DNA from: Ornithinimicrobium ciconiae | GTDB taxonomy: Bacteria; Actinomycetota; Actinomycetes; Actinomycetales; Dermatophilaceae | Assembly (NCBI RefSeq): GCF_007197575.1 | Contig: NZ_CP041616.1 | Span: forward strand, 62,001-126,000 | Direction: 5' to 3' | DNA length: 64,000 bases | Part shown: positions 26,180-57,582 of the stretch, in pieces | Layout of the letters: the number at the start of each line of letters is the position of its first letter | Position numbering within the stretch: position 1 is the first letter of the stretch | Translations under genes and position numbers: made by a program | The notes under the pieces: model-generated | What the model was told of the DNA's origin: nothing | Seen by the model: the letters and a program-made list of their open reading frames with translations, nothing else | Database searches by the model: none

Positions 26180-26875
26180 TCAGGGAGCCAGCAGGACAGC
26201 ACCGGCGACCAGGCAGGCAACGCAGATCAGCCAGAAGAGCCCGACCCAGAGGGTGGCCGGCACCCCGGTCAGCGCGGCGAGCTGATCAACGTCGGACTGG
26301 CGGGCGCCGCCGCGTCCGCGCTGCCGCTGCAACTCCACGACCGAGCGGGGAGCGGCCAGCAGCAGCGCCCAGACCAGCAGGTGCGCGATCCACCCCGCCC
26401 CCTCTGCCGGGAGCAGCCAGGTGGCACCGCCGACCAGCGCTCCTGCGACGAGCAGGACCCAGAGCCCATAGAAGTTGCGGATCTGGATCAGCATGAGGGC
26501 GCACAGGGCGACCATCAGCCAGAGCCAGCCCACGGCATACCCCTGGGAGAGCAGTGCGGCAGAGGCGAACCCCAGGACGGCCGGGGCCGGATATCCCGCG
26601 GCGAGGGTCGCCACCATGCCGGGGCCGCGGGGGCGTCCGCGCGAGATCGTGACGCCGGAGGTGTCCGCGTGCAGTCGGATGCCCCGCAACTGCCGCCCGG
26701 TCAGCACCGCCACCGTGGCATGTCCGGCCTCGTGCACGATCGTGACGCCGTGCCGGATGAACCGATAGCCGGTGGGCGTCCAGGTGACCAGCAGGGCGAG
26801 GGCGGCCAGGACCAGGGCACCGGCGAGCGACGGCAGCGGTTGGGTGGACGTGGCCGCATCCCAGATGTCACGCAC
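26180..26875 (-). CDS. M50-family membrane metallopeptidase-like protein
   Basis: 231 residues with the zinc-binding motif HEAGH near residue 49 (VTIVHEAGHATVAVLTGR) at the end of a membrane helix, then SRGRPRGPGMVATLAAGYPAPAVLG, corresponding to the second M50 region, and three to four further membrane segments. Site-2-type proteases cleave within the membrane; no PDZ domain is present and no partner anti-sigma factor is adjacent. The start is GTG. Confidence 0.8.
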   Translation of the reverse strand: MRDIWDAATSTQPLPSLAGALVLAALALLVTWTPTGYRFIRHGVTIVHEAGHATVAVLTGRQLRGIRLHADTSGVTISRGRPRGPGMVATLAAGYPAPAVLGFASAALLSQGYAVGWLWLMVALCALMLIQIRNFYGLWVLLVAGALVGGATWLLPAEGAGWIAHLLVWALLLAAPRSVVELQRQRGRGGARQSDVDQLAALTGVPATLWVGLFWLICVACLVAGAVLLAP

Positions 26876-26919: not shown

Positions 26920-26984
26920 CCCACCGGCGGACCAGCAAACCCTTACGAAAAGACGGGGCGGACCAACAAAACCGCTACGAAAAT
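26920..26984 (-). repeat. 3'-end tandem repeat locus A (two units)
   Basis: Two imperfect 33-bp units, read on the minus strand. Unit 1 (26984-26952) starts ATTTTCGTAGCGGTTTTGT; unit 2 (about 26951-26920) starts CTTTTCGTAAGGGTTTGC. Both end in GGTCCGCC. The array begins 2 nt after the guanine deaminase stop codon, in the sense direction of that gene. Same family as 50238-50354 and 54610-54696. Confidence 0.7.
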
Positions 26985-26986
26985 TG

Positions 26987-27493
26987 TCAGTAGTCGGTGC
27001 GGTCTGCCTTGGCCTGCCACTGCGCAAAGACGTCCCCCGCGCCGGGCACCTCGAGCCGGCGGAACGGGAGCGTGCGGGCCTCCGGCGCCAGACCGATCTC
27101 GTCATAGATCATGGCGTCGCTGAAGCCGACGGCCGCCGCGTCGTGGCGGGTCGCGGCGTAGTACAGCGCCTCGGCGCGGGACCAGTAGATCGCCCCGAGA
27201 CACATCGGGCAGGGCTCGCACGAGGCATAGATCACGGCACCGGACAGTTGGAAGTCGCCCAGGTGCTCAGCAGCGGCGCGGATCGCGGTGATCTCCGCGT
27301 GCGCGGTCGGGTCACTGGTGCCCACGACCGTGTTCCACCCCTCGGCGATCACCTCCCCGTCGAGCACGACCACGGCTCCGAACGGGCCGCCGCTGCCACT
27401 GGTCACGGCACGGCGGGCCAGCTCGAGGGTGTGCTGCAGGTGTCGGGCGTGTTCGGCGTCGTCGGCGTCACGATCGAGGGGCGAGGTCGGCAT
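26987..27493 (-). CDS. guaD: Guanine deaminase-like nucleoside/base deaminase
   Basis: 168 residues of the cytidine-deaminase fold with HAEITAIR (zinc His and catalytic Glu) and PCPMCLGAIYWSRAEALYYAA (two zinc Cys). The following DAAAVGFSDAMIYDEI strongly resembles Bacillus GuaD, which converts guanine to xanthine, rather than TadA. ATG 27493 is chosen over an upstream extension because homology begins near HARHLQHTLELARRA. The stop codon is followed directly by a repeat array. Confidence 0.85.
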   Translation of the reverse strand: MPTSPLDRDADDAEHARHLQHTLELARRAVTSGSGGPFGAVVVLDGEVIAEGWNTVVGTSDPTAHAEITAIRAAAEHLGDFQLSGAVIYASCEPCPMCLGAIYWSRAEALYYAATRHDAAAVGFSDAMIYDEIGLAPEARTLPFRRLEVPGAGDVFAQWQAKADRTDY

Positions 27494-36684: not shown

Positions 36685-37661
36685 TGGCACTGCTCGACAC
36701 CTATGGCCGGGCGCACCGGGACCTGCGCATCTCGTTGACCGACCGATGCTCGCTCCGGTGCACCTACTGCATGCCGGAGCAGGGACTTCCCTGGCTGGCG
36801 AAGCCAACCCTGTTGACCACCGAGGAACTCATCCACCTGGCGCGCATCGCCGTGGGCCTGGGCATCGACGAGGTCCGACTGACCGGTGGGGAGCCCCTGC
36901 TGCGGCGCGACCTGGTGGACGTGGTCGCCGGCATCTCGGCCCTGGGCGTCGAGGTGTCCATGACGACCAATGCCCTCGGGCTCGACAAGATGGCGCCCGA
37001 CCTGGTCGCCGCCGGACTCACCAGGGTCAACATCAGTCTCGACACGCTCGACCGCGAGACCTTCAAGACCCTGGCGCGACGGGACCGCCTCGATGACACC
37101 CTCGCCGGCATCGCGGCGGCCGACGCTGCTGGGCTGGCTCCCCTGAAACTCAACACCGTGCTGATGCGTGACATCAACGACCACGAGTCCCCGGCCCTGC
37201 TGGCCTTCGCTCTCGAGCACGGCTACCAGTTGCGCTTTATCGAGCAGATGCCACTCGACGCCGGACACACCTGGCGGCGGGACAACATGGTCACCGGCGA
37301 GGAGGTGCTGGTCCGCCTGCGCAAGCACTACGACCTGACGCCGGCCGAGCAGCGCGGCAGCGCTCCTGCCGAGCGCTTCCTGGTGGACGGCGGCCCCGCC
37401 ACTGTCGGGGTGATCGCCTCGGTCACCGCTCCGTTCTGTGGCGCCTGCGACCGGGTGCGCCTCACCGCCGACGGGCAGGTGCGCAACTGCCTGTTCGCCA
37501 CGACCGAGACGGACCTGCGGACGCCCCTGCGTGAGGGAGCCAGCGATGAGGAGCTGGGCGAGCTCGTCCAGGCCTGCATCACCGCCAAACTGCCCGGCCA
37601 CGGGATCAATGACCCCGGCTTCCTGCAGCCGGCCCGTCCGATGAGTGCCATCGGCGGCTGA
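36684..37661 (+). CDS. moaA: GTP 3',8-cyclase (molybdenum cofactor biosynthesis protein A)
   Basis: 325 residues. A radical-SAM enzyme that starts molybdopterin synthesis from GTP. The SAM-type cluster motif CSLRCTYC lies near residue 22-29, GGEPLLR follows, and the second cluster uses CGACDRVRLTADGQVRNC near residue 255-272. The protein ends in the functional Gly-Gly tail. ATG 36684 overlaps the mogA/moaB stop. Its last 30 bp, including the stop codon, are duplicated 50 bp downstream. Confidence 0.93.
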   Translation: MALLDTYGRAHRDLRISLTDRCSLRCTYCMPEQGLPWLAKPTLLTTEELIHLARIAVGLGIDEVRLTGGEPLLRRDLVDVVAGISALGVEVSMTTNALGLDKMAPDLVAAGLTRVNISLDTLDRETFKTLARRDRLDDTLAGIAAADAAGLAPLKLNTVLMRDINDHESPALLAFALEHGYQLRFIEQMPLDAGHTWRRDNMVTGEEVLVRLRKHYDLTPAEQRGSAPAERFLVDGGPATVGVIASVTAPFCGACDRVRLTADGQVRNCLFATTETDLRTPLREGASDEELGELVQACITAKLPGHGINDPGFLQPARPMSAIGG

Positions 37662-37719
37662 GCCGCACCCGCACCACCCGAGCCCGTCCGATGAGTGCCA
37701 TCGGCGGCTGAGCCGCACC
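37632..37719 (+). repeat. Tandem duplication of the moaA 3' end (period 50 bp)
   Basis: A 38-bp segment (37632-37669, containing the last nine codons and the TGA) is repeated exactly at 37682-37719. ACCACC(C/T)GAGCCCGTC also occurs in both intervals. The second copy lies outside the gene. Confidence 0.9.
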
Positions 37720-37810
37720 ACCTGAGCCCGTCGCGATTGCGCCAGGGCTGGGTCAAGAACACCCCAACAGGACTGCCTAGCGGCACTTCTGGACCCCTGC
37801 GCGCCCTCGC

Positions 37811-47056: not shown

Positions 47057-47165
47057 GCGGCCGATGGTAGACCCCCGGGGGCGCACCCTCTTGGTTGTGT
47101 CCTCCGGCAGCCGCACACCGGAGGAGCACCGTGGGCGAAGAGATCGGCTTCGGGCACGCCACCTC

Positions 47166-47310
47166 GGACCTGGGCACCGGGAGTCCCTGGACTTGAGCAC
47201 GGGGAGTCCTCGGACCTGAGCACCGGGAGTCCCTGGACCTGAGCACGGGGAGTCCTCGGACCTGAGCACGGGGAGTCCTCGGACCTGAGCACGGGGAGTC
47301 CTCGGACCTG
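47166..47310 (+). repeat. 23-bp tandem repeat array between bioY and the kinase gene
   Basis: GGAC recurs every 23 bp exactly: 47166, 47189, 47212, 47235, 47258, 47281 and 47304. The unit is GGACCTGAGCACGGGGAGTC plus CTC, with a few substitutions in the first three copies (for example GGGCACCG, TTGAGC, CACCGG). Six full units and one partial. It fills much of the 305-bp gap between the divergent genes. Nothing else stands out there except CCCCCGGGGG (47072-47081). Confidence 0.85.
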
Positions 47311-49170: not shown

Positions 49171-50202
49171 TCAGGACCCCTCGCGGGCCTGCTGCCACAG
49201 GTCGATCCCGGCGTCGACGGCATACTGCTCGATCTGCGCGAGCTCCTCGTCGCTGAACTCGAGGTTCTTGACCGCGGCGACGTTCTGCTCCAGCTGCTCC
49301 ACGCTGCTGGCGCCGACCAGCACGGAGGTCATCCGGGCATCCCGCAGCACCCAGGCCAGAGCCATCTGGGCCAGGCTCTGCCCGCGGCCGGCCGCCAGCT
49401 CGTGCAGCGAGCGCACGTGCGCGAGCGACTGCTCGGTGAGCATCTCCGCAGACAGCGACTTGCTCTGGCTGGCTCGGGAGCCCTCCGGGATCCCGTGCAG
49501 ATAGCGGTCGGTCAGCATCCCCTGGGCCAGCGGTGAGAAGGCGATGCACCCGGCGCCGACCTCCTCGAGGGTGTCCAGCAGCTGCTCCTGCTCGATCCAC
49601 CGGTTGAGCATCGAGTAGGACGGCTGGTGGATCAGCAGCGGGGTGCCGAGGTCGGCCAGCAGGCCGGCGGCCTCCCGGGTCGCCGCAGCGGAGTAGGAGG
49701 AGATCCCGACATACAGCGCCTTGCCGGAGCGGACGATCGCGTCCAGCGCGCCCATCGTCTCCTCCAGCGGCGTCGAGAGGTCCGGTCGGTGGTGATAGTA
49801 GATATCGACGTAGTCCAGCCCCATGCGTCGCAGCGACTGGTCGAGGCTGGCGATGAGGTACTTGCGCGAGCCCCCGATCTGACCGTAGGGGCCCGGCCAC
49901 ATGTCCCACCCGGCCTTGCTGGAGATGACCAGTTCATCGCGCAGACCGGCAAACGAGCGCTGCAGGTGACGGCCGAAGTTCTCCTCCGCGGCGCCGTAGG
50001 GCGGGCCGTAGTTGTTGGCCAGGTCAAAGTGGGTGACACCGAGGTCGAACGCCCGGCGCAGCACCTGCTCCTGCCGCTCGAAGGCGACGTCGTCGCCGAA
50101 GTTGTGCCACAGGCCCAGCGAGACCGCTGGCAGGTCCAGGCCGGAGCGTCCGGTGCGGCGGTAGGTCATCGAGTCATAGCGCGAGGGGTCCGGGGCGTGC
50201 AT
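49171..50202 (-). CDS. Aldo-keto reductase (YghZ/GSP69-like)
   Basis: 343 residues. The catalytic tetrad is visible: Asp in HFDLANNYGP, Tyr (YGPPYG), Lys in VISSKAGWDM and His in YYHHRPD. The YRRTGRSGLDLPAVSLGLWHNFGD start and the LDEVGAGCIAFSPLAQGML-like segment match the E. coli YghZ group, which reduces L-glyceraldehyde 3-phosphate and methylglyoxal with NADPH. ATG 50202 is chosen; an upstream extension would run into the 3'-repeat array. Confidence 0.88.
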   Translation of the reverse strand: MHAPDPSRYDSMTYRRTGRSGLDLPAVSLGLWHNFGDDVAFERQEQVLRRAFDLGVTHFDLANNYGPPYGAAEENFGRHLQRSFAGLRDELVISSKAGWDMWPGPYGQIGGSRKYLIASLDQSLRRMGLDYVDIYYHHRPDLSTPLEETMGALDAIVRSGKALYVGISSYSAAATREAAGLLADLGTPLLIHQPSYSMLNRWIEQEQLLDTLEEVGAGCIAFSPLAQGMLTDRYLHGIPEGSRASQSKSLSAEMLTEQSLAHVRSLHELAAGRGQSLAQMALAWVLRDARMTSVLVGASSVEQLEQNVAAVKNLEFSDEELAQIEQYAVDAGIDLWQQAREGS

Positions 50203-50237
50203 GTCCCTATCTTGCCCCTCCAACTCCTGCTGCGTTC

Positions 50238-50354
50238 CGAACCTCCCGAAAATGGTGCGTGGCCGCCCCGACGAAACCCCTCTCAAAAGGTGTTGGGCAC
50301 CGACGAAACCTCTCGGAAAATAGGTGAGGCGCCGACCAAACCTCTCTCACAGTG
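50238..50354 (-). repeat. 3'-end tandem repeat locus B (about four units)
   Basis: Read on the minus strand, four imperfect units of 30-35 bp follow the GH13 stop codon within 5 nt. The best-kept core is GAGAGGTTTCGTCGG (50303-50316 region), with ATTTTCCGAGAGGTTTCGT and TTTGAGAGGGGTTTCGTCGG as variants, and the last ending ATTTTCGGGAGGTTCGG. Same family as 26920-26984 and 54610-54696. The 153-bp gap to the reductase gene holds little else. Confidence 0.7.
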
Positions 50355-50355
50355 G

Positions 50356-52170
50356 TCAGGGTTCGAGCGAGAGGACCACGGCGCTGTAGGCGCCGACCGC
50401 CAGGGTCGCGCTCTGGGCGCAGTCGTCGGCTGGCTCCGGGTCCGTGACCACGTCGAAGACGGGGTGGTCCCCGAACGCCGGGTCGTAGAGCGTCGAGTCG
50501 CCGTTGAACCGGACAGCCCAGCGGCCGGCCCGCGGCATGCCGACGCGGTAGTCGGTCACAGGTGAAGCGGAGAAGTTCAGCGCGACGAGGGTGTCGTCGT
50601 GCGGACCACCCTGCCCCCACCGGTGCAGGATGATCAGTCCGCGCCCCTGGTCGACCCGAATGACATTGGCGTTTGGGCCACGCAGGCCCGCAGTCGTGCC
50701 CTGCCGGTTGCGGCGCAGCGCGATCAGGTGGCGGTGCATCGCCACGATGCCGGAGTGGTCGCGCACGTCACGCCAGTCCAGCGGCACGGAGTCATCGAAG
50801 TAGCGGTCGGCCAGCATCTCCTGGCCCTGGAAGAACATCGGCATGCCGGGCGCGAAGAAGACCGCCGCAGACCCGAGCGTCGCCCGCTTCTTTGCGGCGA
50901 GACTGTCTGCCGCACCGGGTGAGATCGCCTCCGGCACCCGCGTCTTGCCGTTGGCCACCTCGTCGTGCGACTCGGTGTAGATCACCCGGGAGCCAGCCGC
51001 GCCGCGACCTGTGCCGAGGATGCCCTGAGCCACCTCGCTCATGTCCCGGCCGGAGTCGTCGAGCTCGGTGAGCGCACGCCGCACCACGTGGACGAAACCG
51101 GCGTCCCACTGGGCGTGGAAACCCAGACCTCCCTGCTCAACCGGCATGGTGACCGTGGGGTCGTTCTGCAGGTCCTCGGCGATCAGTAGCTTCCACGGCT
51201 GGTCGCTCGACAGCGCCGAGTTCAGGGACTGGAGGTATTCGGTGGCATCCGGGAGCATCGACCCGGCGTCCTGGACTGTCCCGTGCACGGACCGAATGTA
51301 GGCGGTGGCATCAAAGCGCAGTCCGTCGCAGCGGAACTCGCGCAGCCAGAGCTTGGCGCTGTCGAACAGGAACTGGCGCACCGCCGCGCGCCCGAAGTCC
51401 GGCCGGGTCGCACCCCACGGGGTCTCGGCCCGCCAGTCGTTGTAGAAGTAGATCCCGCCGCCGTCATTCTCGTGCCACCCGTCAAAGCGCCACAGGTCCA
51501 GGTCCGAGGGCCCGATGTGGTTGTGCACGACGTCGACGATGACTGCGATCCCGTGCTCGTGAGCGGCCTTGATGAAGCGTTTGAAGGCGTCCGGTCCGCC
51601 GTAGGAGGACTCGACGGCAAACATGTGCGCCGGGTTGTAGCCCCAGCTGATGTCCCCGGCATACTCTGCCGGAGGCATCACCTGCACCACCGAGATGCCC
51701 AGCTCGCGCAGGTAGGGCAGTCGCTCGGCGGCCCGGTCGAAGGTGCCCCGGTGCTCCTGGTCCGCGGCGAAGGTGCCGACGTGCATCTCGTAGATCACCA
51801 CGTCGTCCCAGTGCGGCATCTGGAAGTCGTCGTCCCCCCAGTCGAAGGCGTGCGGGTCGTAAACCACCGAGTTGCCGACCGAGTTGGTCATGACGCGCGC
51901 ATAGGGGTCCGCCCGCCAGACGTCCTCACCGCCTCCGGTAGTCACCTTGAACTGATACTCGGCCCCGGCGCTGACCCCCGGGACGTGGACCGACCAGGTG
52001 CCCGCGGACCCGTCACCGTCGGGGCTCAGCTGTGCGGGGTCCTTCCACTCGTCGTAGGAGCCGACGGCCGCGACGCCGCGGGCGTTCGGCGCCCAGACGC
52101 GGAAGGTCACGCCGTCGTCGTGCAGGGTCGCACCCATGCCGGGGTGAGGGGACGGAGCAGTGTGTGCCAT
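50356..52170 (-). CDS. GH13 alpha-amylase-family enzyme (branching-enzyme or trehalohydrolase-like)
   Basis: 604 residues. An N-terminal CBM48-type domain (FRVWAPNARGVAAVGSYDEW and GAEYQFKV) precedes the catalytic barrel: DVVHNH (213-218), GLRFD with nucleophile Asp287, LIAED with acid Glu332, and SHDE (402-405). A beta-rich C-terminal domain ends the protein. Architecture fits glycogen-branching or malto-oligosyltrehalose trehalohydrolase enzymes; the sequence does not settle which. No treY/treS or glg genes are adjacent. ATG 52170 is preferred over an upstream start. Confidence 0.82.
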   Translation of the reverse strand: MAHTAPSPHPGMGATLHDDGVTFRVWAPNARGVAAVGSYDEWKDPAQLSPDGDGSAGTWSVHVPGVSAGAEYQFKVTTGGGEDVWRADPYARVMTNSVGNSVVYDPHAFDWGDDDFQMPHWDDVVIYEMHVGTFAADQEHRGTFDRAAERLPYLRELGISVVQVMPPAEYAGDISWGYNPAHMFAVESSYGGPDAFKRFIKAAHEHGIAVIVDVVHNHIGPSDLDLWRFDGWHENDGGGIYFYNDWRAETPWGATRPDFGRAAVRQFLFDSAKLWLREFRCDGLRFDATAYIRSVHGTVQDAGSMLPDATEYLQSLNSALSSDQPWKLLIAEDLQNDPTVTMPVEQGGLGFHAQWDAGFVHVVRRALTELDDSGRDMSEVAQGILGTGRGAAGSRVIYTESHDEVANGKTRVPEAISPGAADSLAAKKRATLGSAAVFFAPGMPMFFQGQEMLADRYFDDSVPLDWRDVRDHSGIVAMHRHLIALRRNRQGTTAGLRGPNANVIRVDQGRGLIILHRWGQGGPHDDTLVALNFSASPVTDYRVGMPRAGRWAVRFNGDSTLYDPAFGDHPVFDVVTDPEPADDCAQSATLAVGAYSAVVLSLEP

Positions 52171-52271: not shown

Positions 52272-53729
52272 ATGAGCGTCAGCCTCTGGGAGCAGATGAG
52301 TCGGCGCAAGCCGCTGGCGCGGGTCACCTCGGGGAGCAGCGACGAGCACCTGGAGCGCAAGCTCGGCACCTTTACGCTGATGCTCTTTGGCGTCGGCGCC
52401 ACCGTCGGCACAGGCATCTTCTTCGTCATGCAGGAGGCCACCCCCGACGCGGGACCGGCTGTCGTGGTGGCCTTCATCGTCGCCGGCCTGGCCGCCGGGC
52501 TGTCCGCGCTCTGTTATGCCGAGCTGGCCAGTGCGATCCCGGTCAGCGGCTCGACCTACTCCTACGCCTATCACTCGATGGGTGAGCTGGTCGCCATGAT
52601 CATCGCCGCCTGCGTGCTGCTGGAGTATGGCGTGGCGGCCTCCGCGGTCGCGGTCGGCTGGAGCGGCTACTTCAACGAGCTCACCAGCAGCCTGTTCGGC
52701 TGGCAGCTGCCCGACGCCCTGTCGTTCTCGCCCATCCCGTTCGAGGACAACGCCACCGGTCTGATCAACCTGCCGGCCGTGGTGCTGGTCTTCCTGTGCA
52801 TGCTGCTGCTGATCCGGGGAGTGACCGAGTCGGCACGGGCCAACACGATCATGGTGCTCATCAAGCTCGGGGTCCTGCTGATGTTCGTCATCATCGCCTT
52901 CACCGCCTTCGAGGCCGACCGGTTCGACAACTTCTGGGCCGCGGGGCCGGCCGGCGTGAGCGCGGCGGCCGCGACGATCTTCTTCTCCTTCATCGGACTG
53001 GACGCCGTCTCCACCGCCGGTGAGGAGGTGCGCAACCCCCAGAAGGCGCTGCCGCAGGCGATCATGGGTGCGCTGGTGATCGTGGTCACCGTCTATGTCC
53101 TGGTCGCCATCTCCAGCGTCGGCGCCCAACCGTTGGAGGACTTCTCCGACCCGGAGCAACAGTCCGCCGGCCTGTCGGTGATCCTGGGCAACATCACCGG
53201 CAACTCCACGGCCGGGACGATCCTGGCCGCCGGTGCCGTCATCTCGATCTTCTCGGTCACCCTGGTGACGCTCTATGGCCAGACCCGCATCCTGTTTGCC
53301 ATGGGGCGCGACCGGATGCTGCCGCACAAGTTTGCCCACGTCAATCCGCGCACCCTGACCCCCAACTTCAACACCGTCGTCGTGGCACTCGTGGTGTCCC
53401 TCATCGCCGGGTTCGTCCCGGCCGACTACCTGTGGGACACCGTCTCGATCGGGACGCTGGGAGCCTTCATCACGGTGGCGATCGGCGTCCTGGTGCTGCG
53501 GCGCACCAACCCCGATCTGGAGCGGCCGTTCAAGGTGCCGGGCTATCCGGTCACCCCCATCCTGACCGTCATCCTGTGCATCTATGTTCTGTCCGGCCTG
53601 CGCCTGTTCACCTGGGTCGTCTTCCTCACCTGGCTGGCCATCGTGCTCGCCTTCTACTTCCTGTGGGGTCGACGAAACTCGCGGTTGAACCCGGGCCAGG
53701 CCCCGGTCGAGACGGCGGACGTGCCATGA
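52272..53729 (+). CDS. APC-family amino acid permease
   Basis: 485 residues, twelve membrane helices. Helix 1 has FGVGATVGTGIFFVM, the substrate-binding GxG-type motif of APC transporters, and SARANTIMVLIKLGVLLMFVI and FFSFIGLDAVSTAGEEVRNPQKALPQAI mark cationic-amino-acid (CAT-like) members. The substrate is probably an amino acid, exact type unknown. ATG 52272 is divergent from the GH13 gene (101 bp between the starts). A 4-bp overlap links it to the stress-protein gene. Confidence 0.88.
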   Translation: MSVSLWEQMSRRKPLARVTSGSSDEHLERKLGTFTLMLFGVGATVGTGIFFVMQEATPDAGPAVVVAFIVAGLAAGLSALCYAELASAIPVSGSTYSYAYHSMGELVAMIIAACVLLEYGVAASAVAVGWSGYFNELTSSLFGWQLPDALSFSPIPFEDNATGLINLPAVVLVFLCMLLLIRGVTESARANTIMVLIKLGVLLMFVIIAFTAFEADRFDNFWAAGPAGVSAAAATIFFSFIGLDAVSTAGEEVRNPQKALPQAIMGALVIVVTVYVLVAISSVGAQPLEDFSDPEQQSAGLSVILGNITGNSTAGTILAAGAVISIFSVTLVTLYGQTRILFAMGRDRMLPHKFAHVNPRTLTPNFNTVVVALVVSLIAGFVPADYLWDTVSIGTLGAFITVAIGVLVLRRTNPDLERPFKVPGYPVTPILTVILCIYVLSGLRLFTWVVFLTWLAIVLAFYFLWGRRNSRLNPGQAPVETADVP

Positions 53730-54604
53730 CCGTCCTGGTCGGACTCGGCCCCCTGGACGACCACTCCACCATCGAGTTCGCGGCGACGCTGGCCCGGTCC
53801 GACGGGCAGGACCTGTCCGTGGTCTCCGTGGTCCCCGCACCCTGGCCCACCCCGATCTCCGGTGGGGTCGACGGGGAGTATGCCGAGTGGGCCAGCACGC
53901 AGGGAGCCGCCGCGGCCGCGCGGGCCAAGGAGTTCACGGACGAGCACTGTCAGGGGATCGAGGTCAGCACCTCGTGGGTGCGTGGCCGGTCCGCCCCGTC
54001 CGCGCTGCGCCGCGAGGCCGCGCGCATCAGTGCTGATCTCATCGTCCTGGGCTCGTCCAGGACGCGTGGTCGCATCGCGCTGGGCTCCACCGCCGACGCC
54101 TTGTTGCACTCCTCCCCGATCCCGGTGGCCATCAGCACGCACGGATATGCGGCCCCACGGAACGGGGTGATCGCGAGGGCAACGGTGGCCTTCCGGGGTG
54201 ATCCGCCCTCTCACCGAGCACTGCACCGCACCGCCGAGGTGTGCCAGCGGGCGGGAGCCTCGCTGCGCGTGGTGACCTTCTCGGTCACCAGTCAGGGCAT
54301 GTTCACCGCTGGTGTAGGTCGCAGCGAGCGCCTGGTCACTGACCAGTGGGAGGAGTCCGTGACGCAGGAGCAGACGCGCGCCGTCGAGTCCCTGGCAGAC
54401 CTCGGCATCGACCCGGCGCAGGTCGAGCAGGCCGTCGCCCGGGGCGCCGACTGGTCCAAGGCGCTGCACCGGGTGTCCTGGCACGACGACGAGATCCTGG
54501 TGGTCGGGTCCTCCCGCGAGGGTCGGCTGACCCGGCTCTTCCTCGGACCGACCGGCACTCGGATCGTGCGCGCCTCACCGGTGCCGGCGGTCGTCGTCCG
54601 CTAG
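53726..54604 (+). CDS. Tandem universal stress protein (two Usp domains)
   Basis: 292 residues with two Usp modules. Module 1 ends in LIVLGSSRTRGRIALGSTADALLHSSPIPVAI, a good ATP-loop pattern (G-x2-x-G-S-T). Module 2 ends in ILVVGSSREGRLTRLFLGPTGTRIVRASPVPAVVV, similar but with GPTG. Fusion to the permease operon (ATGA overlap) suggests that it serves the transporter's regulation. A repeat array begins 5 bp after its TAG. Confidence 0.85.
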   Translation: MTVLVGLGPLDDHSTIEFAATLARSDGQDLSVVSVVPAPWPTPISGGVDGEYAEWASTQGAAAAARAKEFTDEHCQGIEVSTSWVRGRSAPSALRREAARISADLIVLGSSRTRGRIALGSTADALLHSSPIPVAISTHGYAAPRNGVIARATVAFRGDPPSHRALHRTAEVCQRAGASLRVVTFSVTSQGMFTAGVGRSERLVTDQWEESVTQEQTRAVESLADLGIDPAQVEQAVARGADWSKALHRVSWHDDEILVVGSSREGRLTRLFLGPTGTRIVRASPVPAVVVR

Positions 54605-54609
54605 AAACA

Positions 54610-54696
54610 ATTTTGGTAGTGGTTTCGTCGGCGCACCCCGCATTTTGGTAGTGGTTTCGTAGGCGCACCCCGCATTTTGGTAGTGGTTTCGTAGGC
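54610..54696 (+). repeat. 3'-end tandem repeat locus C (three units)
   Basis: Units start at 54610, 54642 and 54674 (period 32 bp). Each begins ATTTTGGTAGTGGTTTCGT, followed by (C/A)GGCGCACCCCGC in the first two; the third is cut after GGC. Sense direction to the stress-protein gene. These fill the 100-bp gap before the convergent gene at 54705. Confidence 0.8.
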
Positions 54697-54704
54697 CCTG
54701 GGCG

Positions 54705-55874
54705 CTAGCCCGTCACCCGCATGAAGCGGGCGTCCCAGGCCTCACCGGGGCGCGGCGCTCGGTCCGGATCCGGCGTGATGTTCTCCAGTTCGGCATACAA
54801 CTGGTAGGCGAGATCACCCGCGGGGGACTCGATCTCGGTCACGCTCCCGAGCAGGCTGTCGAGATACTGCTCGCCGTCGTCATAGGTGTCCACCAGCGCG
54901 AGCACGTACTCGTGACCGACCTCGAGACGGGTGTCAGACTCCAGGACAGCCGGTTGCCCGTCGCTCCACCCCGGTGAGACCTCGAGGGTGATGACCTCAT
55001 CCCACGAGACCGGTGTGATGGCCTCGGGGTGGGACCACATGACGTCCCGCACATAGAGGTCCACCTCTCGGGCCGTCTGGTCGGCGCCGAGGGAGCCCGG
55101 ATAGCGCGGCTCCACCTCACGCTCGGCGAGCACCTCGACCCAGACCACGTGGGAGCCCCAGTCGGCGAACTCCTGCGGCGTGGTCGCGATGAGGTAGGGG
55201 TCGACCATGACCTCGACCGGCTCACCCCTCGGATGGGCCCACTGGATGTGGTCGTCGCAGGGCACCGGATAGTCGGTGTCCTGACAGGCCAGGTCGAAGA
55301 GATCACGCCGGCCGAGTGGTTCGTCCAGCACGACGTCGACCTCGACCTCGTCGTTGCCGGGACACGCATACTCGCCCGACGGCAGCGGCTCCACGTCGAT
55401 CCGGACCAGGACCCGGTCGCTCTCAGCAGTCACGACCGGCTCCAGCACCTGGCCGGTCCTGCCTCCGGAGCACCCTGCCCGGGTGACGCCCACCCGGAGG
55501 GTCTGCGACTCCATGGTCAGACTGCCCGGATCGAGCAACCGCCAACTGGCGGGGTCACCGTCGGACGGTGCGGAGTCCGACGGGGGCGGAGTCCCGGTGA
55601 GCTCTGCCCCGTCGGTCGGCGAGGGCTCACCCTGCGTCGGCGACGACCCGGTCGGCACGGCCGGTGCCATGTCCTCATCCGGGGCCAGGCCGCCCGAGAT
55701 CGCGAGAGCTCCGGCGACGGCTGTTGCCGCGAGCACCGCACCTCCCCCGGCAAACGCTGCCCGACGGCGGCGGCGCATCCCGACACCCCGAGCCCAGGCA
55801 CCCTCAGCCAGATCGACTCGGGGGGTCTGACCCACCGCCTGGTCCAGCACCTCATGCAGGTTCTTGCGAGTCAT
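54705..55874 (-). CDS. Membrane-anchored partner of the second SigE-family sigma factor
   Basis: 389 residues: about 38 cytoplasmic residues, a basic MRRRRRA, one membrane helix (about 40-60), a Ser/Pro/Asp-rich linker (70-110) and a long exported domain with three Cys-containing segments (RAGCSGG, YACPGNDE, LACQDTDYPVPCDD) that could form disulfides. No family known. ATG 55874 overlaps the sigma stop (4 bp), as at 8003-8010. Anti-sigma role is possible but the usual zinc motif is absent. Confidence 0.6.
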   Translation of the reverse strand: MTRKNLHEVLDQAVGQTPRVDLAEGAWARGVGMRRRRRAAFAGGGAVLAATAVAGALAISGGLAPDEDMAPAVPTGSSPTQGEPSPTDGAELTGTPPPSDSAPSDGDPASWRLLDPGSLTMESQTLRVGVTRAGCSGGRTGQVLEPVVTAESDRVLVRIDVEPLPSGEYACPGNDEVEVDVVLDEPLGRRDLFDLACQDTDYPVPCDDHIQWAHPRGEPVEVMVDPYLIATTPQEFADWGSHVVWVEVLAEREVEPRYPGSLGADQTAREVDLYVRDVMWSHPEAITPVSWDEVITLEVSPGWSDGQPAVLESDTRLEVGHEYVLALVDTYDDGEQYLDSLLGSVTEIESPAGDLAYQLYAELENITPDPDRAPRPGEAWDARFMRVTG

Positions 55875-56465: not shown

Positions 56466-56486
56466 GTGCCGGCGGGTCACGATCCG

Positions 56487-56550
56487 GTCACGTCTCGAGC
56501 TGGTCGCGGCTCCGGCTGGTCACGTCTCGAGCTGGTCGCGGCTCCGGCTG
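56487..56550 (-). repeat. 32-bp tandem duplication at the 3' end of the GNAT gene
   Basis: The segment GTCACGTCTCGAGCTGGTCG plus CGGCTCCGGCTG occurs at 56487-56518 and 56519-56550. As 32 is not a multiple of three, the frame differs in the two copies and the duplication has replaced the end of the protein. Confidence 0.85.
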
Positions 56551-57582
56551 GTCTGGGCGCAGGCGCAGCAGCCCTGCTCGGGTCGGCACCAGCCCACAGC
56601 CCTGCTCGTAGAAGGCCGCGGCGGCCTCCTCGTAGTCGGCGTGCAGCCAGTGGCAGCCCCGCAGCGTCGCCTCGCGGGCCGCAGCCCGGACCAGTCCCCG
56701 CCCGATCCCGCGGCCCTGCTGGTCGGGGCGCACCATCGTGTCCAGCAGGAAGGCATGGGCGCCGCCGTCGCCGACGACGTTGACGAAGCCGACGAGGCTG
56801 CGGTCCTCGGGTGCCCGGGCCGTCACCCAGGTGAGGCTGTGCGCGGTGAGTCGCTCGTTCCAGGGGACGGCGGTGGGCGCGTGACCGAAGGCCGCGGCGT
56901 GCAGGCTGGTGAGCTCGGCGTCGGTGACGCTGCCCCACAGCTCCAGGTCGGCCGGGCGGCGCCGGTAGGTGTGCCACCTCTCGGTGATCTGATAGCCGAC
57001 CGCCCGGTTCATGGCCAGGCTGGCGAGATTACTGTCCGCGCCGCCGGTGCCGAAGTGGGTCTCACCCTGCCCGGCGTGGGCCAGCACCGACGCAGCCTTG
57101 ACTGCGCTGCCCAACCCGCGACCGCGGTGCTCGGGATGCACTGCGGTGAAGTCGGTCTCGACCCGGTCCTCGAGCCGGTGCGTCGTGGTCAGCGCGACCA
57201 GGGTCTCGCCCTGCCAGGCGCCCCAGACCTGGCCGCCCTGCAACAGGGCCGCGGCGGCGCTCTCGTCCAGGGGGTCGTGGCGGGTCGCCACCCCACCGGG
57301 ATAGTCCGGGGCGGTCAGCCCGTCCAGGGCCAGCAGCTGCGGTATGTCGTCGGGCTGGGCCAGGCGCAGCACGTAACCGGCGCTGTCCACCCGGCCCACG
57401 AGCCGGCGCAGCCGGGCCAACGGCTCCGGGTCCGACGGGTCGAGCTCGAGGCGGGCGCCCCAGGAGGTGGCGACGCACTCCCACCCGTCCGCCTCCGCCT
57501 GCCGGACGCGCGGGTCGCCGAAGCGCAGCACGATCTCGAGCTCTCGGGAAGGTCCGTCGGGTGTTGCGTCGGGTGACGGCAT
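56488..57582 (-). CDS. GNAT-family acetyltransferase, two-domain
   Basis: 364 residues with two GNAT-like halves. In the first, VHPEHRGRGLGSAVKAASV (acetyl-CoA loop Q/RxxGxG/A type) and NRAVGYQITERWHTYRR; in the second, VRPDQQGRGIGRGLVRAAAREATLRGCHWLHADYEEAAAAFYEQGCGLVPTRAGLLRL. Substrate unknown. ATG 57582; the longer frame upstream is not used. The last dozen residues come from a 32-bp duplication. Confidence 0.8.
   Translation of the reverse strand: MPSPDATPDGPSRELEIVLRFGDPRVRQAEADGWECVATSWGARLELDPSDPEPLARLRRLVGRVDSAGYVLRLAQPDDIPQLLALDGLTAPDYPGGVATRHDPLDESAAAALLQGGQVWGAWQGETLVALTTTHRLEDRVETDFTAVHPEHRGRGLGSAVKAASVLAHAGQGETHFGTGGADSNLASLAMNRAVGYQITERWHTYRRRPADLELWGSVTDAELTSLHAAAFGHAPTAVPWNERLTAHSLTWVTARAPEDRSLVGFVNVVGDGGAHAFLLDTMVRPDQQGRGIGRGLVRAAAREATLRGCHWLHADYEEAAAAFYEQGCGLVPTRAGLLRLRPDQPEPRPARDVTSRSRDQLET

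Follow-up and report, generated by a model that had tools for sequence, protein, structure and literature searches.

The 32-bp repeats of the window, i.e., the whole stretch of 64,000 nt of DNA that was analysed, belong to a family of short tandem arrays that lie with their A/T end against gene boundaries, keep a 32-bp phase and, in almost every array, two or more units, and retain position and orientation across species despite a change of spelling. It is tentatively proposed, at somewhat less than an even chance, that the arrays are sites at which a putative protein, binding DNA sequence-specifically, would set a one-way boundary to transcription. A fuller version of this proposal, in which one Ornithinimicrobium lineage would possess a fast-evolving DNA-binding protein that reads the arrays as one-way exits for RNA polymerase, and in which protein and arrays would respell together, species by species and without moving, is considered rather unlikely.

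Arrays of the window

The three arrays and their flanking genes are listed in Table 1. The preliminary description had placed three 32-bp units 5 nt after a TAG at locus C and the same core behind the deaminase and GH13 genes, and both statements hold, with 98% matches among the 32-bp units of locus C in a tandem repeat scan of the window (54610-54696) and with the other two arrays each beginning 2 nt after the TGA. At locus B, the A/T tract of the first unit is degenerate, and the fourth unit (50233-50252, minus strand) matches the spelling of the related genomes G007 and G019 at 18 of 19 positions; perhaps this last unit is a relic of an older spelling. No array lies beside the ortholog of locus A in the five carriers seen (G007, G009, G014, G018, and G023), beside that of locus B in the three seen (G007, G009, and G014), or beside that of locus C in the three seen (G018, G009, and G023), so that all three arrays of the window look like gains. 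At the equivalent of locus B in G014, the start of the aldo/keto reductase gene overlaps the stop of the GH13 gene (TGATG).

Table 1. Arrays, neighbouring genes, and other tandem repeats of the window.
Feature	Position	Strand	Remarks
Locus A array, 2 units	26931..26984	-	2 nt behind TGA of deaminase gene; co-directional neighbours
Locus B array	50233..50353	-	Behind TGA of GH13 gene; 3 own-spelling units from 50353
Locus C array, 3 units	54610..54695	+	5 nt behind TAG of Usp gene; convergent spacer
Locus C tract-to-core blocks	54610-54631, 54642-54663, 54674-54695	+	
Gene at locus A: deaminase	26987..27493	-	PF00383 + PF14437; named guaD in the preliminary description
Next gene after locus A: Peptidase_M50B	26180..26875	-	PF13398
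Gene at locus B: GH13-type alpha-amylase family protein	50356..52137	-	PF00128 + PF02922 + PF02806
Next gene after locus B: aldo/keto reductase	49171..50202	-	PF00248
Gene at locus C: universal stress protein family	53726..54604	+	PF00582
Convergent neighbour of locus C	54705..55874	-	No Pfam family at E 1e-5
Other tandem repeat, 50-bp unit, 2.2 copies	37632-37737		Unrelated by eye
Other tandem repeat, 23-bp unit, 6.5 copies	47162-47310		Unrelated by eye
Other tandem repeat, 32-bp unit, 2.1 copies	56486-56553		Within a predicted gene; unrelated to the array family by eye

Size, unit, and period of the family

The genome of the window (G000) is a single contig of 4,092,907 bases, in which the window occupies positions 62001-126000. 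Its repeats are not random, as the preliminary description had maintained: the pattern AGNGGTTTCGTNGG with at most one mismatch matches 160 times, compared with 9 times for the reversed pattern; tandem pairs number 46 against 0 in the control, 44 of them at a 32-bp period; and a weight matrix at score 8 gives 193 hits in the examined stretches against 0 in reversed sequence. A profile search of the genome with an E cut-off of 10 gave 189 matches. The consensus from 39 units is TCnnnCCCGCATTTTnnGAGGGGTTTCGTAGG, and the unit in G000 is built of an A/T tract followed by AGnGGTTTCGTaGG. The shared ATTTT reported earlier stands as a tract, but the first A/T tract may be AAAAA instead; AAAAA-type tracts were found in 7 of 216 units in G000, 5 of 80 in G014, and 14 of 81 in G009, and 20 of these 26 belong to the first unit of their own array.

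At least 84 arrays with at least 216 units are present in the window and in 60 further stretches of G000 around listed copies, while stretches of G014 and G009 hold 33 arrays with 80 units and 31 arrays with 81 units, respectively. The stretches were picked for holding copies, and the weight matrices were refitted for each species, with reversed controls of 0, 3, and 0 units (G000, G014, and G009) before array filtering. Neighbouring units are spaced by exactly 32 bp in 121 of 132 cases in G000, 47 of 47 in G014, and 42 of 50 in G009, as well as in 48 of 48 and 31 of 33 cases in the other-spelling genomes G007 and G019. Among neighbours less than 45% identical at variable positions, 40 of 42 are still 32 bp apart (gaps above 45 bp not counted), and the spacing therefore seems to be maintained, not merely recent. 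Two or more units make up 83 of the 84 arrays of G000, 146 of the 148 across G000, G014, and G009, 25 of 25 in G007, and 27 of 28 in G019. Units of the other spelling (at least 14 of 19 positions) follow 5 of the 84 arrays, compared with 7 of 420 in the control and 1 of 84 on the upstream side; since they trail just these five, no general claim is made on the direction of array growth.

Placement and polarity at gene ends

Genes were called with a codon-usage script, not taken from curated annotation. In G000, a gene reads toward the array on its A/T side in 58 of 84 cases, so the earlier statement that the repeats always lie in the sense orientation of the upstream gene is right for the three loci of the window and fails for the genome, in which just these 58 are sense. 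Their first tract is found no further than 10 nt from the stop codon in 52 cases and exactly 3 nt behind it in 22; the former holds for 20 of 21 sense arrays in G014, 15 of 20 in G009, 9 of 12 in G007, and 12 of 15 in G019, and in the last two, both other-spelling genomes, 3 nt is again the commonest distance (7 of 12 and 8 of 15). In 10 of the 58 the distance is negative, the stop overlapping or sitting in the first unit, e.g., as ATTTTGA or GATAG, and two of these ten, more than 20 nt into the array, may be miscalled. When arrays starting at or after the stop were placed uniformly within identical spacers, 11.8 of 48 in G000 were expected within 8 nt and 42 were found, while 2.4 were expected and 12 of 12 found in G014, neither count being reached in 20,000 simulations; the anchor is weaker in G009, with 6 of 12 against 2.2 expected and 37 of 20,000 simulations reaching the count. 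Enrichment behind stop codons, a check set beforehand in the preliminary description, is thereby upheld, and the bias recurs in the stretches of four other species, two of which have a different consensus. It was also observed in the own genome that the stop before the arrays is TAA in 16 of 58 cases, compared with 39 of 419 genes of those stretches, and that stop and tract are separated almost exclusively by C and A, with CCC as the commonest sequence.

In convergent spacers, the A/T end is the one nearer its stop codon in 34 of 35 cases in G000, 8 of 9 in G014 (with one tie), 9 of 9 in G009, 5 of 6 in G007, and 7 of 7 in G019, and all 12 pairs of oppositely oriented arrays less than 700 bp apart face each other. 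Antisense arrays, with the A/T end toward a gene start, number 26 of 84 in G000, 12 of 33 in G014, 11 of 31 in G009, 13 of 25 in G007, and 12 of 28 in G019, i.e., 31% to 52% of the arrays of each genome lie before start codons. Between co-directional genes, the orientation bias anticipated earlier is not seen, with 60 sense and 59 antisense arrays over the five genomes (23:20, 12:11, 11:7, 6:11, and 8:10). At several antisense arrays, the frame of the upstream gene continues across the array to a stop near the following start; the distances from array to start codon are looser and depend on start calls. Because both orientations occur, the rule is that the A/T end lies against a gene boundary, not that the array is sense. 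The genes beside arrays look ordinary and unrelated among the 40 proteins scanned, including argininosuccinate synthase, PurE, SelB, IMPDH, prfA/prmC, DnaJ, and others, which is expected of a general device rather than of a regulon.

Spellings and shared positions among relatives

At E 0.001, the first consensus matches 8 of the 31 genomes of the genus (111, 47, 38, 36, 12, 3, 1, and 1 hits), and strict tandem pairs occur in 4 of 58 genomes (G000 among them), all of this genus. G007 and G019, with 3 and 1 of these hits, carry 32-bp arrays beside prfA that are spelled ATTTTTGGGGAGGTTCGGACCG; with at most two mismatches, this pattern has 68 and 93 matches in the two genomes (0 for the reversed control in both), 4, 7, and 3 matches in G000, G014, and G009, and 0 in the remaining 26 genomes of the genus; the control also matches once in G015. 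The family is thus written in at least two spellings whose consensus clearly differs, with smaller differences inside one of them. Seven of the 31 genomes are counted as carriers (G000, G007, G009, G014, G018, G019, and G023), G024 with its one weak hit being left out; this count rests on two patterns, and other species of the genus may have spellings invisible to them. The search of genome and relatives proposed in the preliminary description has thus revealed a family larger than had been claimed. By prfA, the six other carriers are the nearest relatives of G000 (84-94% identity), the remaining genomes reaching at most 82% in full-length matches and G003 having a split match (72% and 87%). 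It was also noted that the prfA-prmC gap holds an array in all seven carriers, on differing sides and in differing spellings. In a check for spread beyond the genus, 53 contig stretches matched the G000 spelling, and only two, from Ornithinimicrobium cavernae, scored above 11 by matrix, in a scan that may omit the own genome and very near ones. Carriage by viruses was rejected, since 9 viral stretches fit the tandem-pair pattern and none reached matrix score 8.

Arrays are found at the same position in at least two of five genomes in 42 cases, 13 of them in three or four genomes, and the orientation is the same in 42 of 42, often in different spellings. These positions account for 34 of 84 arrays in G000, 20 of 33 in G014, 16 of 31 in G009, 16 of 25 in G007, and 16 of 28 in G019. 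Thirty arrays (16 in G014 and 14 in G009) adjoin a gene that also has an array in G000, and their GGTTTCG block is 97% (G014) and 91% (G009) identical; the variable columns are hardly more alike than in random arrays (spacer 0.63 versus 0.57, and 0.56 versus 0.53), and third codon positions of flanking genes are 71% identical (650 sites in gap-free class-1 pairs). Swaps between A tract and T tract are also seen at shared positions. Both arrays between the IMP dehydrogenase gene and a ROK-family gene are kept in four species, and dhaL has arrays in four genomes and none in G007 and G019; gains or losses of arrays do occur. The start of dnaJ is directly preceded by an antisense array in three species, namely in G000 (4021371), G007, and G018.

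RNA structure and known repeat families

Rfam 15 gave no match in the window at the curated threshold. Arrays folded without their flanks show no RNA folding signal in three genomes, G000, G014, and G009 (mean sense z values among the three of 0.05, 0.15, and 0.77), and a weak one in G007 and G019 (means of -0.60 and -0.99 between the two), alike on both strands; a sense z below -2 was obtained for 6 of 83, 0 of 33, 0 of 30, 8 of 25, and 5 of 27 arrays of G000, G014, G009, G007, and G019, respectively. Folding is weaker on the sense than on the antisense strand in G000 (p 0.001), G014 (p 0.015), and G009 (p 3e-7), and no strand difference is found in G007 and G019. Facing units in these two genomes meet as a GGACCGGTCC palindrome, which may explain their weak folding signal. 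The terminator suggested in the preliminary description is accordingly not borne out as an RNA-structure (intrinsic) terminator, given the lack of a hairpin signal in three genomes, a weak one in two, and a T tract that stands ahead of the core and is sometimes replaced by an A tract. An antisense promoter, with CAAAAT as a -10 element facing the gene, was considered by eye only and dropped, no -35 element being seen at a plausible distance. The Y1 (REP) transposase PF01797 was found in 0 of 31 genomes of the genus by a search that finds it in 5 of 14 control genomes. A literature search by core letters and by topic, with subscription journals mostly uncovered, gave no description of the family among the matches listed.

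Proposed mechanism and its rivals

A length of 32 bp corresponds to about three helical turns. The helical phase, the presence of at least two units, the A/T swaps, and the two orientations point to recognition of the DNA by a protein, which would touch successive units from the same face of the helix, at intervals of three turns, and would need two units or more. As the spelling shifts genome-wide at fixed positions, the specificity of the putative protein and the arrays may have changed together. Of the roles put forward in the preliminary description, the target of a specific machinery is thus the one preferred here, as a hypothesis. Since antisense arrays precede the starts of genes that are seemingly read through, entry of polymerase across the array, in the direction of its A/T end, should be possible; given such entry, the polarity at stop codons suggests that a bound array would hinder an RNA polymerase leaving the gene on the A/T side. 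Behind a stop codon, the array would terminate the mRNA and so protect the neighbouring gene; ahead of a start codon, antisense transcripts would stop there and operon transcripts would pass. Several findings speak against a boundary. The 26 arrays of G000 before start codons lie in part apparently within operons (prfA-prmC, and before dnaJ), and they fit a boundary only if it is one-way. In addition, arrays appear and go, all three loci of the window being private to G000 among the relatives seen, and such turnover is as expected of a spreading repeat. The weaker stop anchor of G009 and the sense RNA of G007 and G019, which folds slightly better than shuffled sequence, also count against it.

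The main rival is a MIRU-like tandem repeat that spreads by inserting beside stop codons and has no host function, its core being kept for spreading and its spelling changing as old copies are replaced. This explanation, which is unlikely but of appreciable probability, accounts for the insertions of the window, which the relatives lack and one of which separates genes overlapping in G014, and for the ordinary, unrelated genes beside the arrays; there is also a precedent in MIRU, tandem repeats that are described as lying in part between genes whose counterparts in related species almost abut (PMC2734929). It is strained by the 42 groups with the same place and orientation in different spellings, which replacement must reproduce site by site, and by a core that outlasts third codon positions (91-97% versus 71%). 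Moreover, random spreading would not predict the 3-nt anchor, the polarity, or the fact that just 2 of 148 arrays consist of a single unit, and no Y1 transposase was found in the 31 genomes.

Tight placement behind stop codons would also suit an RNA 3' element, i.e., a transcribed repeat to which an RNA factor binds so as to terminate or stabilise the mRNA with no need of structure, and the less folded sense strand of G000, G014, and G009 is what an accessible RNA site might show; such an element is nevertheless improbable, because 31% to 52% of the arrays, depending on the genome, lie antisense before starts, A tracts replace T tracts at shared positions, the 32-bp phase is exact, and the strands of G007 and G019 fold alike. 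A role in chromosome structure, with curved or A/T-tract-bound DNA organising the nucleoid and gene ends merely tolerant of it, would agree with A/T tracts spaced by about three helical turns, with both orientations, and with copies that occur along the whole G000 chromosome. Neither the 3-nt anchor nor the 34-to-1 polarity nor the conserved non-A/T core is explained by it, orientation is not biased between the chromosome halves (p 0.38), and this role is regarded as very improbable.

Comparison with known systems

MIRU insert at overlapping stop and start codons. In PMC2734929, they are described as interspersed direct tandem repeats of an actinobacterium, intergenic, with units of 40-100 bp and no agreed function; the arrays are likewise interspersed head-to-tail intergenic repeats of an actinobacterium, but their unit, at 32 bp, is shorter than the size described for MIRU. 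The arrays differ further in the fixed period across diverged units, the polar stop anchor, and the species spellings at shared places. With REP and BIME they have in common a large number of intergenic copies. REPs are palindromes that alternate in orientation within BIMEs, whereas the units of the arrays are direct, head to tail at 32 bp, with no consistent palindrome and no RAYT (PF01797). It has been reported that REPs are short intergenic repeats present in more than 100 copies (PMC2817692).

DNA uptake sequences of Neisseriaceae have dialects, the spelling of the motif differing between relatives and a receptor protein reading it, according to two reports (PMC3630211, PMC3868556). The two clearly different consensus spellings of the arrays resemble such species dialects, but the arrays are phased at 32 bp, comprise roughly 200 units, and lie beside gene boundaries. 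A different parallel lies in the direction of action. Tus-Ter is a polar protein-DNA barrier, and the arrays share with polar barriers a non-palindromic site of fixed polarity to its gene. The likeness to Tus-Ter and to the protein sites between convergent genes that are described in PMC4892627 concerns only the proposed principle of a site acting from one side, and no membership is claimed.

Significance

Bacterial interspersed repeats are often taken as selfish or structural. The same boundaries with a differing genome-wide spelling are what a co-changing site and reader would look like. Should a protein read the arrays, gene ends would be marked in a manner specific to this lineage, and the variants that occur naturally among the seven genomes make it straightforward to search for that protein and to test transcript ends directly.
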